From contig JACJNW010000028.1 of NCBI GenBank assembly GCA_014695195.1, positions 868,001 to 932,000 of the forward strand: a stretch of DNA of 64,000 nt, written 5' to 3'. Below, piece by piece: positions 1,457 to 7,927 of this stretch (positions are counted from its first letter, which is position 1; every line of letters starts with the position of its first letter). A program made the translations under genes and the position numbers. Source of the DNA: Cyanobacteria bacterium FACHB-DQ100 (GTDB lineage: Bacteria > Cyanobacteriota > Cyanobacteriia > Leptolyngbyales > Leptolyngbyaceae). Under the pieces are notes generated by a model that saw only the letters and a program-made list of their open reading frames with translations, did no database searches and had not been told where the DNA came from.

Positions 1457-2182
1457 GTGCGAAAAATTATCATTGCTGGCAATTGGAAAATGTTCAAAAC
1501 CCAGGCAGAAACGCTGGAGTTTTTGCAGGGATTCATGCCTCAGTTGGAGAACACACCTGACGATCGAGAAATAGTGCTGTGTGTGCCGTTTACTGATTTA
1601 GCAGTGTTGTCGAAGAATTTGCACGGAAGTCGGATACAGGTCGGGGCGCAGAACGTGCATTGGGCAGAGACGGGAGCCTTCACGGGCGAGATTTCAGCGT
1701 CGATGCTGACAGAATTAGCAGTTCGCTATGTGGTGATCGGGCACAGCGAACGGAGACAGTATTTTGGCGAAACGGATGAGACGGTGAATCTGCGGCTGAA
1801 AGCGGCTCAAAGTGCTGGATTGAAGCCAATTCTTTGTGTGGGTGAAAGTAAGCAGCAACGGGATACAGGTGAGACTGAAGCGGTGATTTTCGCTCAGCTT
1901 GAGAAGGATTTGGCGGGCGTAGATCAAGACAATTTAGTGATTGCTTATGAGCCGATTTGGGCGATCGGAACTGGAGATACTTGTGAGTCGATCGAAGCTA
2001 ATCGCGTGATCGGGCTGATTCGCAGTCGGTTGAGTAATCCGAATGTCACGATCCAATATGGTGGATCGGTCAAGCCTGAGAATATTGATGAAATTATGGC
2101 GCAACCGGAGATTGATGGTGCTTTGGTGGGGGGTGCAAGCCTTGATCCAAAAGGCTTTGCTCGACTTGTCAATTTTCAGTAA
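1457..2182 (+). CDS. tpiA: Triosephosphate isomerase
   Basis: It interconverts dihydroxyacetone phosphate and glyceraldehyde 3-phosphate in glycolysis and the Calvin cycle, in the cytosol. The 241-residue protein has the usual length. Asn9 and Lys11 (GNWKMFK), the electrophile His96 in GHSERR and the catalytic base Glu165 in [10 protein letters not shown] are present, as is the phosphate-binding YGGSVKP segment near residue 201. The start is GTG at 1457; no closer in-frame ATG preserves the essential N-terminal strand. It looks monocistronic, ending at a long hairpin facing the next gene. Confidence 0.97.
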
Positions 2183-2343: not shown

Positions 2344-5300
2344 CTAGGCAGATTGCTCAATCCACTCATCGATCTCCGAGAAATCATTACAGCCTGTAAC
2401 TTCCATCAGCGTTTGTAGCATTGCAAGATCCTGCTTTTCCCATTCCGCCAGAATTGAGTCGCGATCGTCTTGGGGTGGAAAGTATTTGTAGATTCGCAAT
2501 CCGCCGCGCCGTCCATCTGGTGCAACAGCTCGACCTGTACAGGTGAGTTTGACTCCAATTTTGCCGAGTAGGGTTTGAACAATCGCGATCGGTGCCAGCT
2601 TCTCGGTCACGGTGAAACTAAACAAGGCTTTCATGTCGTCGCGGCACTCTAATGCCGTTGTTGCCACGAATTGAACCAAATCATCGGTTGCAAGAATCTT
2701 CTCTCCGGGTTTGAGAAATTCTAGGATTCTTAGCGATCGTAATGCTTCGACTTGAGCGGTGAGGAGTTTGACATCCTGAATGGAGATTTTGCCGTCTCCG
2801 CGCTCTAGATGATCTTCGATCTCTTGCATATCGTGGAGTCGGACATATTCTGGATTGCGAGTCAGGTAGTAATACAATCGCAATTGTGTATACCAGCCAT
2901 CATCATCTTTGAGTTTGATCTCTGGTGTGATCGTTTCAACGTTGTATTTACGCTTCAGTTCATGCTTGCGTTTACTGTAGCGTTTCTGAACGGTTTGTTC
3001 TGCTTGTTCTTTGAGTTCGTAATATTCTGCTGGAGTGATTTCTGGAGAATCGGAAACCGCGATCGCTTCTGCGGTTTGATTGCGAGTCCGAATCGCAGAA
3101 ATCACCTGAGCAATGCGATCGCACACTTTCAAGTCATGCCGTGCTTCCAAGAACTCAAAGCCTGGAATGTTCAGAACGCCCGTCTTTAGTTGAGCCACCA
3201 TTTGATCTGTGATCGGTAACTGTCCAAACATCTTCGTTAAATCGTCTGTGACTAATGTCACTGTATGACCTTCGAGCAGTAGCCCATTGCGAAACTCGCG
3301 CCGATAGCGCCACAGAGACGCATTCACTCGTGCCGCCATTTTCGCCCAAGTCCGCAGCGCGATCGGGTTACTCTGCTCATCCAAATCAAAATCGATATCT
3401 TTTAGCAATGCAATGTTGTACTGAACCGATTTCGTCACCGATTGCGCGACATCGCGGTAGTTACAGCTTCCATTACCAATTTTTCCAGGGCCGAAATGTG
3501 CTGCCCAAATGTAACGAGGAATCGGTTCACGGACTCTCGCTAAAGCTTGCCGGGACTCCGAATCTGGAGTTACCCCTTGGAAGATACCGAATACCCCTTG
3601 GAAGTGATTGCGGACATCGATCGAGACTCCCGTTCCGATCGTGGGTGTTGCCAAAACGATATCGTAATCACCCACAACATCATTAATGCGCTCAGCAATG
3701 TGATAAGCAGCATGATCCGGATCGGAAACAGTTTCGCTATCAATTCGGAGAATGCGCTTTTCGGGAAACTGCAATCTGAGGTAAGTTTCTAAATTCTTAG
3801 AACTCCAGCGACCTCGGACTTTCTGAGAATCGACGCAGACGAAAACGGCTCCAGTTTTTAGAACGGATTCCATGCGATCGATCAAAGGTGCAGGATTTTT
3901 CGTGTCGTATAGCGAAACATTCCAAGAAATTTCTGGCTTCCATTGATTCACCACCACCCAAGGTGTTACCGGAGTTTCTGCCAATCCGCGTAAGTAATCG
4001 ATGCTGACATCTGACAAGTCTGCGTCTTGTGCAATCACCAATCCATCGGTCGCCAGTACAGTCTCGATTAATTCGCGCAGGGTTTCGAGAATTCTGACGC
4101 GCTGATTGTAGCAAGTTGCACTATTGAGCGCGTGCCATAACACCTGTTCGACTTCATCGAGAATGACGATCGCACCTTCCCACTCTGCCGCATTAAACCG
4201 GATGCGCGAGTTCGGATGCAGCGAATCAATACACAATCCATAGCTGCCCGGATTTTCCGAATTCAGCGCATCAGTAATCCAATCAATCCCAATACTTTGA
4301 CAAATTGCTTTACCGAGTTGAATGCGATGGGTGATCACCAGAACTTTGCGGGCAGCTTTCGCTGTGCCAGGGGCAACGGTTGCCGTTTTGATTAATCCTT
4401 GTAGGGCTGTTGTTTTCCCGGTTCCTTTAGCACTTTTAATACAAGCTAAACCAGATTCGGGATAAGGAAGATCTCCTAAATACGGCTGATTTAATGTAAG
4501 TGAAGGGGTATAGGTTAGTGACCATAATTTTGATGCCTGCCAGAACTCAAGCTCAACTGCTGATTCATATAGTTTTGTAAATGCAGCATGACCATGAGCC
4601 ACAATAAAATCGTCAACGCCTTTTTCAGCACCTGGCAGTGCAATAACTTTAACCTGACAGCCCGCATTGGTTAATAGTTGCCCTAAACGAGAAGTCGCAA
4701 GAAAAATATTTTGTAAGGTTCGCGGTTTTGTTTCGTAATCGAAGCAGATATGAACGGTTCTTTGAGTCGTGGCAAAATGACCGAGTTCTGCGATTAGTTG
4801 CCGAGTTTCGCGCCGATAGCCGCTAAAAATTCCGGGAAGCGCGATCGCGGCATAGCCCAAACTCAACAGACAACCCGCTTTCTTCTCGCCTTCGGTGAGC
4901 ACGATCGGCAAATTATTGCGCCAAACCCATTCCCAAAAGTTCGTTGCTCCAGCAATTTCGATTTCAAACCGTTCTGCAACCTTCTGCCAAATCCGCATGG
5001 GTACATCGAGCAGAATCAATCGGCTAGAGCCTTTACCCAGACTGGGACTGAGATATTTTGCGGGTTTGCTTTTCGTGCGATCGACGATCGGCGTATCGGC
5101 ATCGGGCTTAAACCGTCCCCACTCCATCCGCTGCCAGTGGTTAAGCGGATCAATTCCGCTCACCCACCAGCCCCGCACCGATTCCCGCGCTTGTTGACCA
5201 AATCGCGTCACTTTCCAATTCAGCCGCTCAGCGATCGGATAACTCGCCTCGCGAGTAAATGGATCGAAGTCGGTATCATGCAGTGATCGTACATTCCGGC

Positions 5301-5415
5301 GAATAATCTCCGGATCGACACCGCTCATTAACCATTCTTGTTCGTGATCGGGCGCAAGGTAGCCCTCGATCGATTTTGCCGCTTCAGAAGAAGCAATTCT
5401 GAGGGAAGTTACCAT
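2344..5415 (-). CDS. CyRepA1-family plasmid replication protein (DUF3854 toprim-like plus helicase)
   Basis: Large replication protein (about 1023 residues) of the cyanobacterial plasmid type. The N-terminus carries the family's paired segments EWLMSGVDPEIIRRNV and GWWVSGIDPLNHW. A DUF3854/toprim-like part follows (LTEGEKKAGCLLS near residue 175, ICFDYE near 223), then an ATPase/helicase half with Walker A SAKGTGKTT (~330), Walker B VILDEVEQV (~418), ATPTIGTGVSID (~590) and a QALARVRE arginine motif (~626). It probably initiates replication and unwinds or primes DNA. ATG at 5415 follows an AAGGAGCAGG ribosome site; in-frame ATGs at 5436 and 5481 would lengthen it. It is divergent from a second initiator-like gene. 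A plasmid-type Rep beside tpiA and recA suggests an integrated replicon. Confidence 0.85.
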   Translation of the reverse strand: MVTSLRIASSEAAKSIEGYLAPDHEQEWLMSGVDPEIIRRNVRSLHDTDFDPFTREASYPIAERLNWKVTRFGQQARESVRGWWVSGIDPLNHWQRMEWGRFKPDADTPIVDRTKSKPAKYLSPSLGKGSSRLILLDVPMRIWQKVAERFEIEIAGATNFWEWVWRNNLPIVLTEGEKKAGCLLSLGYAAIALPGIFSGYRRETRQLIAELGHFATTQRTVHICFDYETKPRTLQNIFLATSRLGQLLTNAGCQVKVIALPGAEKGVDDFIVAHGHAAFTKLYESAVELEFWQASKLWSLTYTPSLTLNQPYLGDLPYPESGLACIKSAKGTGKTTALQGLIKTATVAPGTAKAARKVLVITHRIQLGKAICQSIGIDWITDALNSENPGSYGLCIDSLHPNSRIRFNAAEWEGAIVILDEVEQVLWHALNSATCYNQRVRILETLRELIETVLATDGLVIAQDADLSDVSIDYLRGLAETPVTPWVVVNQWKPEISWNVSLYDTKNPAPLIDRMESVLKTGAVFVCVDSQKVRGRWSSKNLETYLRLQFPEKRILRIDSETVSDPDHAAYHIAERINDVVGDYDIVLATPTIGTGVSIDVRNHFQGVFGIFQGVTPDSESRQALARVREPIPRYIWAAHFGPGKIGNGSCNYRDVAQSVTKSVQYNIALLKDIDFDLDEQSNPIALRTWAKMAARVNASLWRYRREFRNGLLLEGHTVTLVTDDLTKMFGQLPITDQMVAQLKTGVLNIPGFEFLEARHDLKVCDRIAQVISAIRTRNQTAEAIAVSDSPEITPAEYYELKEQAEQTVQKRYSKRKHELKRKYNVETITPEIKLKDDDGWYTQLRLYYYLTRNPEYVRLHDMQEIEDHLERGDGKISIQDVKLLTAQVEALRSLRILEFLKPGEKILATDDLVQFVATTALECRDDMKALFSFTVTEKLAPIAIVQTLLGKIGVKLTCTGRAVAPDGRRGGLRIYKYFPPQDDRDSILAEWEKQDLAMLQTLMEVTGCNDFSEIDEWIEQSA

Positions 5416-6084
5416 CAGTCCTGCTCCTTCTGACATAAATTCGCACACGAACCTGGCGCAGACGCGCCGCACCTGATACAATATCTAGACATAGAAATCA
5501 AGCCCAATCTTTTTGGGCAAACAAGGTTATCAACCCCTTTGGCTGACTGTGGTAGGGAAGCTCGAGGGGTTTTGCTTATGCAATTGAAATTCTAGATTGG
5601 CGGACTTCTTGAAGCGGTGGTAGTCGCCTGAAATCGCGCAATCTAATTCGAGACAAACAAGGTTAGTCGGGTCATGCAGGTTAAACATTACCGACGTGGA
5701 AAGCAGATTAACACTGATCCAGCAGAGGCTCAAGAGGGGATGGATCAGCGATCCGGGGGAGTGATAGGTGAGTTAGAGGCACAAGTTAGGTGGGAAGTTG
5801 GACGGGGGAGGAATAGGCAGTGGGAAGTGGAGAGCGGGGGAATTAGGGAGTTTGTGAGGGATGCGATCGCGTAAAATAGCTTCACCCCTGGATCGAATCA
5901 ACGACAGAGTTACAGGGAAAAGATCGACGCGGCAGTTACAGAGATCGCGATCGAAATCAGACGCAGGCGTTACAGAACTGAGTGAAATTACTACTAGCGA
6001 TAGGGGCAGCCTGGATCATTCCGGCACTAAATCTCCAGATATAGCGTTTAACCTCTAGACAAAACTCCGAGGGTAGGGCACTAT
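5416..6084. other. Divergent spacer with iterated motifs: candidate replication origin / Rep-binding region
   Basis: About 670 bp separate the two divergent replication-type genes. I see: CAAACAAGGTTA twice (5518-5529 and 5654-5665); GTTACAG three times on the same strand (5909-5915, 5935-5941, 5969-5975); a hairpin GCCCAA/TTGGGC at 5502-5518; a second stem AACCCCT/AGGGGTT at 5532-5571; and a strongly purine-rich plus strand from about 5730 to 5865. Iterated short motifs beside a rep gene are typical of iterons, but no function is shown. The small open frames here lack good start sites and are not called. Confidence 0.45.
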
Positions 6085-7191
6085 ATGTGGGGTCTAGAAT
6101 CTTCGAGAGCGATGAAACCACTAGAAGCAGCCTTTCCCGTCGATAGTCAACTTTTGATGGTGTTGCCCAGAGCCAGCGCATCCATCCGCAATCCAGATGT
6201 ACGACTGCCGATTTTGCGATCGGATGCTAACGGCTATTACTTGGAGATGCGAGTGGAGGCGGATGCTCAGGACGAAAGCGAATTTGCTGTGATTCGTCGA
6301 GTGCCGCTAGAAAATTTGACCGAAGAAGAATTAATAGAGTTAAAAACCGAATATGCCAAGCTCGATTGGGCAGCTTGTGTCCGGAAAGGCGTAAGCAATG
6401 GATTAGAAAAAGTCCACGATCGCCGGATTCAAAGAATGTTTATGGCGTTGATGACGTTTCTGAATCCACGTCAGATTTCGATCGTGCTGTATCTCTATAA
6501 ATTGGCGGCCCAACAGCAAAACGGCGGAACAGTGACGTTCCGATCGAATGATTTACTTGAAAGTTTGGGATACACCCGCACAAAGGATGGCGGATTTGCG
6601 TCGAAGCTGCGATCGCAACTGAATCGAGATTTAGTCACGCTGCATCGAACCGAATTAGTATTAGCGCAGTCGTTCAAAAAAATGCACCAAAATCGTGGCG
6701 CAAAAGTCATGATTAAAAGCATTCTGCGAATCAAAGATTATGAAGTGGACACTGCTCCGCGGGATTTTGATATTACAAAAGCCGCGGATTACACTTATGA
6801 ATTGGCAGATTCTTACACGATCTCTCTAGAGTTTTTTGACAGTTCTCGAAACGGGGATTGTGTCCTTTTTCCGAATCAGTTCGACATTACTCAACGGCTG
6901 GGTACGAACGCGAAGTGCGATTATAAAACCAAGCTTCTCATCTATCTAGCAAGTCGAATGAAATGGGATAGCTTAACCGATGGACAATTCATCTCTGTTT
7001 CTAAACGATACTTGTTCAAAAACCTTGATTTACTCGGCAGTAATTCTTCTCGAAATAACCAAATTCTTTGGCGCACTGTGGACGAACTCAAAGCAGATGG
7101 CTACCTCTTGGGCGCACAAGAACTCTCAGGAAAAAGTCGCATTTCTACGATTCAATTCCAGATTGATTCAACCAAATTGAAGTGCAAATAG
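6085..7191 (+). CDS. Putative replication initiator-like protein, probably winged-helix
   Basis: A 368-residue soluble protein I do not recognise by a named family. Residues ~110-200 (RRIQRMFMALMTFLNPRQIS, then LLESLGYTRTKDGGFASKL) and the C-terminal part (YKTKLLIYLASRMKW, then RNNQILWRTVDELKADGYL) both look like DNA-binding winged-helix units, the two-domain plan of plasmid initiators such as Rep_3. The divergent CyRepA1 neighbour supports a replication role. ATG at 6085 has AGGG six bases upstream; ATG at 6112 with GAGAG is an alternative. It could instead be a transcriptional regulator of the Rep gene. The gene is solid; the function is inference. Confidence 0.6.
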   Translation: MWGLESSRAMKPLEAAFPVDSQLLMVLPRASASIRNPDVRLPILRSDANGYYLEMRVEADAQDESEFAVIRRVPLENLTEEELIELKTEYAKLDWAACVRKGVSNGLEKVHDRRIQRMFMALMTFLNPRQISIVLYLYKLAAQQQNGGTVTFRSNDLLESLGYTRTKDGGFASKLRSQLNRDLVTLHRTELVLAQSFKKMHQNRGAKVMIKSILRIKDYEVDTAPRDFDITKAADYTYELADSYTISLEFFDSSRNGDCVLFPNQFDITQRLGTNAKCDYKTKLLIYLASRMKWDSLTDGQFISVSKRYLFKNLDLLGSNSSRNNQILWRTVDELKADGYLLGAQELSGKSRISTIQFQIDSTKLKCK

Positions 7192-7261: not shown

Positions 7262-7927
7262 ATGAACCTAAGAGAAAAAGCAATGGTGTTATTTGGATTT
7301 GGCAAAAAACTGGCGATTCCTACTCCTGATGAAGCGCTAAAAGGTCGATCGGAACCAATGCCCGTTCCCGCGAAGCATTTCGTCAAGGGTCATCCGCTCA
7401 AGCCTCCCTTCCCGCCTGGAATTGAAACCGCCGTCTTTGGTCTCGGTTGCTTCTGGGGTGCGGAGCGAAAATTCTGGCAGCAAGAAGGCGTTTACACGAC
7501 TGCCGTTGGTTATGCCGCAGGGAGCACTCCAAATCCGACTTACCAAGAAGTTTGCTCTGGCATGACCGGACATAATGAAGTTGTATTAGTGGCTTACGAT
7601 CCGAAAGCCATCAGTTACGAGCAACTCTTGAAAGTATTCTGGGAAAGCCACGATCCGACTCAAGGAATGCGCCAGGGAAATGATGTCGGCACTCAGTATC
7701 GATCGGGAGTCTATGTCTACAACGACGAACAGCGCAAGGCAGCAGAAGCTTCTCTGAAGACCTACCAGGAAGAACTCGCAAAAGCAGGATACAAAGCAAT
7801 CACCACCGAGATTCTAGATGCGCCTGAATTCTATTATGCTGAAGCTTACCATCAGCAGTATCTCGCTAAAAATCCCAATGGCTACTGTGGTTTAGGCGGT
7901 ACAAAGGTCTGCTATCCCGGAGCTTGA
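7262..7927 (+). CDS. msrA: Peptide methionine-S-sulfoxide reductase MsrA
   Basis: It reduces the S-epimer of methionine sulfoxide in proteins and so repairs oxidative damage in the cytosol. The hallmark [11 protein letters not shown] places the catalytic cysteine at residue 63. Resolving cysteines 209 and 217 lie in the C-terminal [14 protein letters not shown] tail, which fits the thioredoxin-recycled class. The 221-residue length includes a ~55-residue N-terminal extension common in cyanobacterial forms. ATG 7262 follows AAGAAG; ATG 7283 is an alternative. The 3' end overlaps the opposing MBL gene by 16 bp. Confidence 0.96.

Follow-up and report, generated by a model that had tools for sequence, protein, structure and literature searches.

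The divergent gene pair described here, a CyRepA1-family primase-helicase gene (2344-5481, minus strand) and a gene for a protein that we call PART (6085-7191, plus strand), is very probably a plasmid-type iteron replicon that became fixed in a cyanobacterial chromosome. The pair lies in a window of 64,000 nucleotides from the draft genome of Cyanobacteria bacterium FACHB-DQ100 (G000:C28:868001-932000), where it is flanked by tpiA and msrA. As an overall explanation, we consider it reasonably probable that this fixed replicon is now a weak or conditional auxiliary origin; the ability of the locus to initiate still, taken as a claim of its own, is plausible and somewhat short of probable. A preliminary description of the window had reported a CyRepA1-family Rep protein beside core chromosomal genes and a divergent, initiator-like second protein. 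The former was borne out by a score of 427.2 bits against NCBIfam NF042913 (CyRepA1), above the curated cut-off of 200 bits, for a gene lying between tpiA and msrA, and the latter by plasmid counterparts, iteron arrays and the ranking of fold matches, all of which point to PART as a probable initiator.

Conservation and inheritance of the pair

The same divergent pair was present in all eight genus members, with PART homologous throughout, and in 10 further genomes of the family, giving 18 loci. In the near-complete genus assemblies G002, G004 and G006 it shared a contig of 5.7-6.3 Mb with dnaA, and in the window's draft genome dnaA was on a different contig. The conserved unit is the pair itself and not its flanks: msrA adjoined it in six of the eight genus members, tpiA did so nowhere but in the window and in G007, its closest relative, and G002 and G005 had other neighbours. 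The full order tpiA-Rep-msrA, suggested earlier as a point of comparison, was thus shared by the window and G007 alone, and conserved synteny was rejected beyond these closest relatives because the flanking genes differ. Signs of replicon decay were seen in some genomes, with both genes broken in G016 (L089) and CyRepA1 split in G014 (L084).

Against genus members, the ratio of nonsynonymous to synonymous substitution rates (dN/dS) was 0.036-0.048 for PART and 0.046-0.083 for CyRepA1, and msrA and a gene of the metallo-beta-lactamase fold fell in the same range. The dS values of both genes were similar to those of neighbouring genes, and over 15 genomes the identity to the window's proteins tracked DnaA identity (rho 0.96 and 0.99). 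Low dN/dS, neighbour-like dS and the correlation with DnaA argue for vertical inheritance without fresh insertion, and these substitution patterns indicate an old capture that has been kept under strong purifying selection.

The PART family, its partners and its iterons

Members of the PART family were detected in 93 of 390 cyanobacterial genomes and 47 of 160 genera. Six large plasmids carried homologues, on each of them divergent from a big replication or primase-like protein (DUF3987, DUF3854 or CyRepA1); on pMB05 a short primase-polymerase-like protein stood opposite PART, and Chondrocystis plasmid3 had the same PART and CyRepA1 pair as the window (CyRepA1 436 bits). Plasmid pMIC7113.01 encodes ParA/ParB close to PART and pMB05 encodes ParB-like proteins, and the database entries of five of the six plasmids name no replicon type. 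On plasmid pCHRO.01, an iscB gene was observed between the DUF3987 gene and PART (L108, 6573-7847). In several near-complete assemblies PART occurred on secondary contigs of 172-964 kb, which are putative plasmids, and in G002, G004, G006, G031 and G351 it was on the main chromosome. A viral origin of the PART replicon was rejected, since 2.9 million viral contigs contained no relative of PART and no iteron pair.

PART was usually divergent from a replicative primase/helicase, the two separated by 6-16 direct repeats whose spacing was often conserved, and the type of partner varied considerably. CyRepA1 was found in the window clade, G026, G072 and Chondrocystis; other loci had DUF3987 proteins, among them one carrying the N-terminal domain of DnaB, or a primase-polymerase-like protein (the LigD polymerase domain of Mycobacterium tuberculosis at E = 0.018, weak Pfam hints, and DID, SGGLHL and FPNP motifs), and some had a zinc-Toprim-type protein. 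In G018 no primase or helicase of these types adjoined PART. The PART tree, with Shimodaira-Hasegawa-like approximate likelihood ratio (SH-aLRT) support only and some long branches, requires at least seven partner changes, and two metagenome-assembled genomes of Symploca had near-identical PART proteins opposite different partners. The simplest reading would be that an initiator-iteron core takes whichever primase or helicase is at hand.

Upstream of PART, a 17-mer resembling TACGCCGGAGTTACAGG occurred 6-12 times in many loci on plasmids and in relatives, with ~0.03 expected by chance, and a seed-free repeat count gave up to 12 copies in PART loci vs at most three in shuffles. The iteron spacing 24-25-31-25-75-25-31-25-34 recurred in distant relatives. 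One PART clade (G010, G031, G034, G050, G197 and G143C1; 100% support) had iterons of the form ..GTGATAGA in place of ..GTTACAGG, so that the iteron type differs by PART clade, as expected if PART binds iterons. G143 contained two PART replicons (L210 and L211), with iterons CGTCGGAGTGATAGA and TACGCCGGAGTTACA, which look like two compatibility groups.

Judged by the family consensus, through which alone they are recognisable in the window, the iterons of the window's genus have been eroded to about three weak copies. The three in the window are spaced 26 and 34, matching the last steps of the full array, and two to three iteron-like sites are kept at the PART-proximal end in most of the genus.

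Predicted fold of PART

PART gave no Pfam, NCBIfam or PHROG match (E < 0.001), and a sequence search of the PDB found no relatives. A first AlphaFold model, built on a shallow alignment, had a mean predicted local distance difference test score (pLDDT) of 46.6 and was usable only for residues 277-367; a second, trimmed to residues 100-368, had a mean pLDDT of 58.6. With this second, low-confidence model, the 39 best Foldseek matches in the PDB were RepE/Rep and RctB proteins (E from 1.4e-3), and iteron initiators outranked all regulators. In the comparison with tandem winged helices of the RepE/Pi kind, these low-confidence models gave a whole-length root-mean-square deviation (rmsd) of 7-8 Å. 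The C-terminal winged helix aligned to RepE (Table 1) and to Pi (2nra, Z 8.8). Because PART has a divergent primase/helicase partner, lies beside direct-repeat arrays and ranks RepE, Pi and RctB first by predicted fold, it is very probably an undescribed iteron initiator.

CyRepA1 and its structured leader

In the CyRepA1 protein of the window, the Toprim-like motifs TEGEKKA and CFDYE and the helicase superfamily 2 (SF2) motifs AKGTGKTT, LDEVEQV, TGVSID and QALARVR are all intact; the Toprim-like residues and SF2 motifs were kept in 12 aligned homologues. The mechanical open reading frame begins at TTG 5481, and the N termini of relatives suggest an ATG near 5415. Two more CyRepA-like proteins, below the family cut-off, were encoded on separate contigs of the window's genome (G000:C37:84708-86567, L061; G000:C41:205788-206774, L062).

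On the CyRepA1 sense strand, all 18 clade loci contained two to three CTACCAC sites, of which a long hairpin (element 1) holds one and short stem-loops, one or two per locus, hold the rest. The stems of these stem-loops vary yet pair, and the CUACCAC loop is invariant. For 22 distinct stems, taken in a single register (8-nt loop) with three hairpins that pair better in another register left out, 90.9% of cells were paired, where shuffles gave 50.1 ± 3.8%, and each of the five pairs showed changes on both sides; arm swapping among 25 hairpins, these three included, gave 60 ± 6 pairs vs 104 observed. Chance was rejected as a source, there being six comparable stem-loops in 1.2 Mb of chromosomal sequence vs 30 in the 18 loci. 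We favour a role as RNA, because the sense strand of CyRepA1 has more G-T than A-C pairs (14 to 8); a role as single-stranded DNA, for example as a primase loading site, is possible. An Rfam search of the leader gave no match up to E = 5. The hairpins were rejected as a general CyRepA1 trait, as the other CyRepA leaders examined had no comparable set. In G019 (L094) an element-1-type hairpin alone is kept (GAGACCCT..CTGTGGTAGGG..AGGGTCTC) despite a primase-polymerase-like partner. A second CyRepA1 of G007, ~61-70% identical to that of the window and encoded on a 44 kb contig (L230, G007:C96), is accompanied by neither PART, iterons nor CTACCAC hairpins.

Table 1. Features of the PART/CyRepA1 locus and its flanks, in window coordinates
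Feature	Position	Strand	Remarks
tpiA	1457-2182	+	Flanking chromosomal gene, context only
CyRepA1-family primase-helicase, chromosomal clade	2344-5481	-	NF042913 427.2 bits; DUF3854 143.8 bits; 1045 codons
CyRepA1 core domain with SF2 helicase motifs	2539-4455	-	NF042913 at residues 343-981
DUF3854 (Toprim-like) domain of CyRepA1	4585-4938	-	PF12965, residues 182-299, 143.8 bits
Leader element 1, long hairpin with CCCC/GGGG outer stem holding CTACCAC	5532-5571	-	18/18 clade loci; predicted fold agrees
Leader element 2, 5-bp stem-loop, loop A-CTACCAC	5612-5629	-	Covarying stems; in minimum-energy fold
Possible iteron remnant TCCGGGGGAGTGATAGG	5752-5768	+	Repeat families D1/D4; weak
Possible iteron remnant GACGGGGGAGGAATAGG	5801-5817	+	Weak
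Degenerate iteron AACGACAGAGTTACAGG	5900-5916	+	3 mismatches to family iteron
Degenerate iteron GACGCGGCAGTTACAGA	5926-5942	+	4 mismatches to family iteron
Degenerate iteron GACGCAGGCGTTACAGA	5960-5976	+	4 mismatches to family iteron
PART, predicted iteron-binding replication initiator	6085-7191	+	368 codons; probable start ATG 6112
C-terminal winged-helix domain of PART, predicted counterpart of RepE WH2	6913-7185	+	VIA-align Z 9.2, 88 residues, rmsd 4.1 to 2z9o
msrA	7262-7927	+	Flanking chromosomal gene, context only

Comparison with known replicons

First, the CyRepA1 of the Synechocystis plasmid pSYSA is Slr7037, and a region of RNA-based control (ssr7036/asRNA1) lies ahead of its gene; ssr7036 and CyRepA1 are enough for a pSYSA fragment to replicate, and deletion of CyRepA1 leads to integration of pSYSA into the chromosome or pSYSX (PMC9978351). 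The window's protein belongs to the same family and has the same domain order, DUF3854 and then a DEXD helicase, and an RNA-structured region likewise precedes its gene. In contrast, pSYSA needs no PART, and the window gene is chromosomal and paired with PART. Ohdate et al. (2024, PMC10899382) report that 80 of 145 cyanobacteria have chromosomal CyRepA homologues, of unvalidated function, and the presence of CyRepA on a chromosome is therefore no novelty in itself; in the sections consulted, neither an initiator divergent from CyRepA nor iterons, swapped partners or hairpins in the leader are mentioned.

Second, PART resembles RepE of mini-F, Pi of R6K, RepA of pPS10 and RctB of Vibrio chromosome 2 in its predicted tandem winged-helix fold and in the position of its gene beside an array of ~17-bp direct repeats. 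Unlike those systems, it shows no detected Rep_3 sequence similarity, DnaA boxes are mostly absent, and the replicon has its own exchangeable primase/helicase opposite the initiator. We do not claim PART as a Rep_3 member, as sequence profiles give no link.

Third, RSF1010-type replicons encode the RepA helicase, the RepB primase and the iteron binder RepC. The PART replicon would resemble these in its way of working, by combining an iteron binder with a plasmid-encoded helicase and primase; it differs in that a single protein often serves as both primase and helicase, and that this protein can be of several unrelated types. In the literature searched, with most subscription journals outside its scope, we found no description of the PART iteron family.

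Proposed history and alternative explanations

Computation directly shows a divergent pair that is vertically inherited and under selection, iteron arrays across the family, swapped partners and covarying leader hairpins. The course of events that we propose to connect them is as follows. An ancestor of the window's cyanobacterial family would have acquired an iteron-type plasmid replicon as a fixed part of its chromosome, and the replicon would have been inherited vertically since. PART would be the initiator, binding iterons through RepE/Pi-like tandem winged helices, and the intergenic region would be the former origin, at which CyRepA1, the replicon's own helicase-primase, may be loaded or directed by PART once the origin is opened. 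The most likely role of the locus today would be that of an auxiliary origin, weak or conditional, the initiator and the primase-helicase both having stayed active. As the least certain step, the copy-control iterons may have eroded while control of CyRepA1 passed in part to the structured leader RNA. Precedents make both the capture and the use of a plasmid origin plausible: DnaA-independent chromosome replication is documented in cyanobacteria, the chromosome of S. elongatus lacking dnaA can be driven by a plasmid origin integrated into it (PMC7198777), and pSYSA integrates as described above (PMC9978351).

Several observations weigh against this proposal. Without the family consensus, the iteron array of the window's genus could no longer be detected as repeats, with 2 copies where shuffles gave 1.8, and the intergenic region of the window contained no DnaA box within one mismatch and no marked AT-rich stretch, its maximum being 66% AT over 50 bp. 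Both PART models were poor (mean pLDDT 46.6 and 58.6), and PART had no Pfam match to Rep_3 (PF01051), with an hhalign probability of 0.1% against the Rep_3 alignment. PART is missing from three family members with complete or near-complete genomes (G012, G020 and G028) and is therefore not generally essential. Finally, the GC (guanine-cytosine) skew was examined in the complete genome of the relative G006, in 61 samples of 20 kb that gave an irregular curve, and the Rep locus (4.65 Mb) was at neither the skew minimum nor the maximum.

The alternative that survives best, which we regard as unlikely and still serious, is a domesticated module without origin function, doing another job such as replication restart or acting as an incompatibility guard, in which PART and the leftover iterons would oppose invading plasmids of the same family. 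The erosion of iterons in the genus while both proteins are conserved, the lack of a skew signal at the locus in G006 and the existence of same-family iteron plasmids in cyanobacteria all suit it. However, the divergent two-gene layout has been kept in all 18 loci, and the PART-proximal iteron-like sites persist in most of the genus.

A captured replicon that took over initiation as DnaA dependence loosened, making the locus a main or regular chromosomal origin, is very improbable. Cyanobacteria do differ in DnaA dependence, as the S. elongatus case illustrates (PMC7198777), and both genes are under strong selection and paired in all eight genus members. Yet dnaA was found in all genomes compared, the iterons are eroded, and in G006 the minima of cumulative GC skew and gene-direction skew were at ~2.5-2.85 Mb, near dnaA (2.656 Mb) and ~2 Mb from the Rep locus, with the skew maximum near 5.2 Mb. 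This skew argues against a main origin at the Rep locus and not against a weak one. The backup or unusual origin raised in the preliminary description is accordingly supported only in part: a backup origin is possible, and neither the G006 skew nor a DnaA box or AT-rich stretch marks the locus as a main origin. DnaA AAA-domain matches (~40 bits, above the cut-off; open reading frames of ~275-290 amino acids) were also noted on secondary contigs of 326-521 kb in G002:C2 (L118) and G004:C2 (L119).

There is little to recommend PART as a transcriptional regulator of the divergent gene, with the repeats as its operators: the winged-helix fold is common to regulators such as CRP (Z 7.6) and the divergent layout would suit one, and Rep proteins autoregulate too, but arrays have about ten direct repeats with long-range spacing, unrelated primases and helicases are swapped opposite PART, iteron initiators top the fold ranking, and ParA/ParB or ParB-like proteins accompany PART on pMIC7113.01 and pMB05. 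A recently integrated plasmid or mobile element in transit, for which the integration of pSYSA lacking CyRepA1 (PMC9978351) and the varying neighbours might speak, is scarcely credible, being contradicted by dS equal to that of neighbouring core genes and divergence correlated with DnaA, and in the window the pair directly adjoins ordinary genes of the chromosome. Of the captured plasmid envisaged earlier, the plasmid-type module in the chromosome thus stands and the recent capture does not, vertical inheritance having ruled it out.

Implications

The initiators of large cyanobacterial plasmids are known only to a limited extent (PMC10899382), and the more interesting part of our result is an undescribed initiator family with exchangeable primase/helicase partners. 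In its widest form our proposal is tentative: PART may found an undescribed, widespread cyanobacterial iteron replicon family with interchangeable primase/helicase modules, accompanied here by a vertically inherited second chromosomal origin and RNA-hairpin control of the primase-helicase. The way in which unrelated primases and helicases replace one another opposite a single initiator is also relevant to the construction of replication modules. In addition, the locus offers a test case: much of a family has retained a plasmid origin in the chromosome, and the activity of that origin would be readable from sequencing depth. Furthermore, with PART in approximately a quarter of the sampled cyanobacterial genomes and a clear iteron signature, the family may provide new vector origins with differing iteron specificities.

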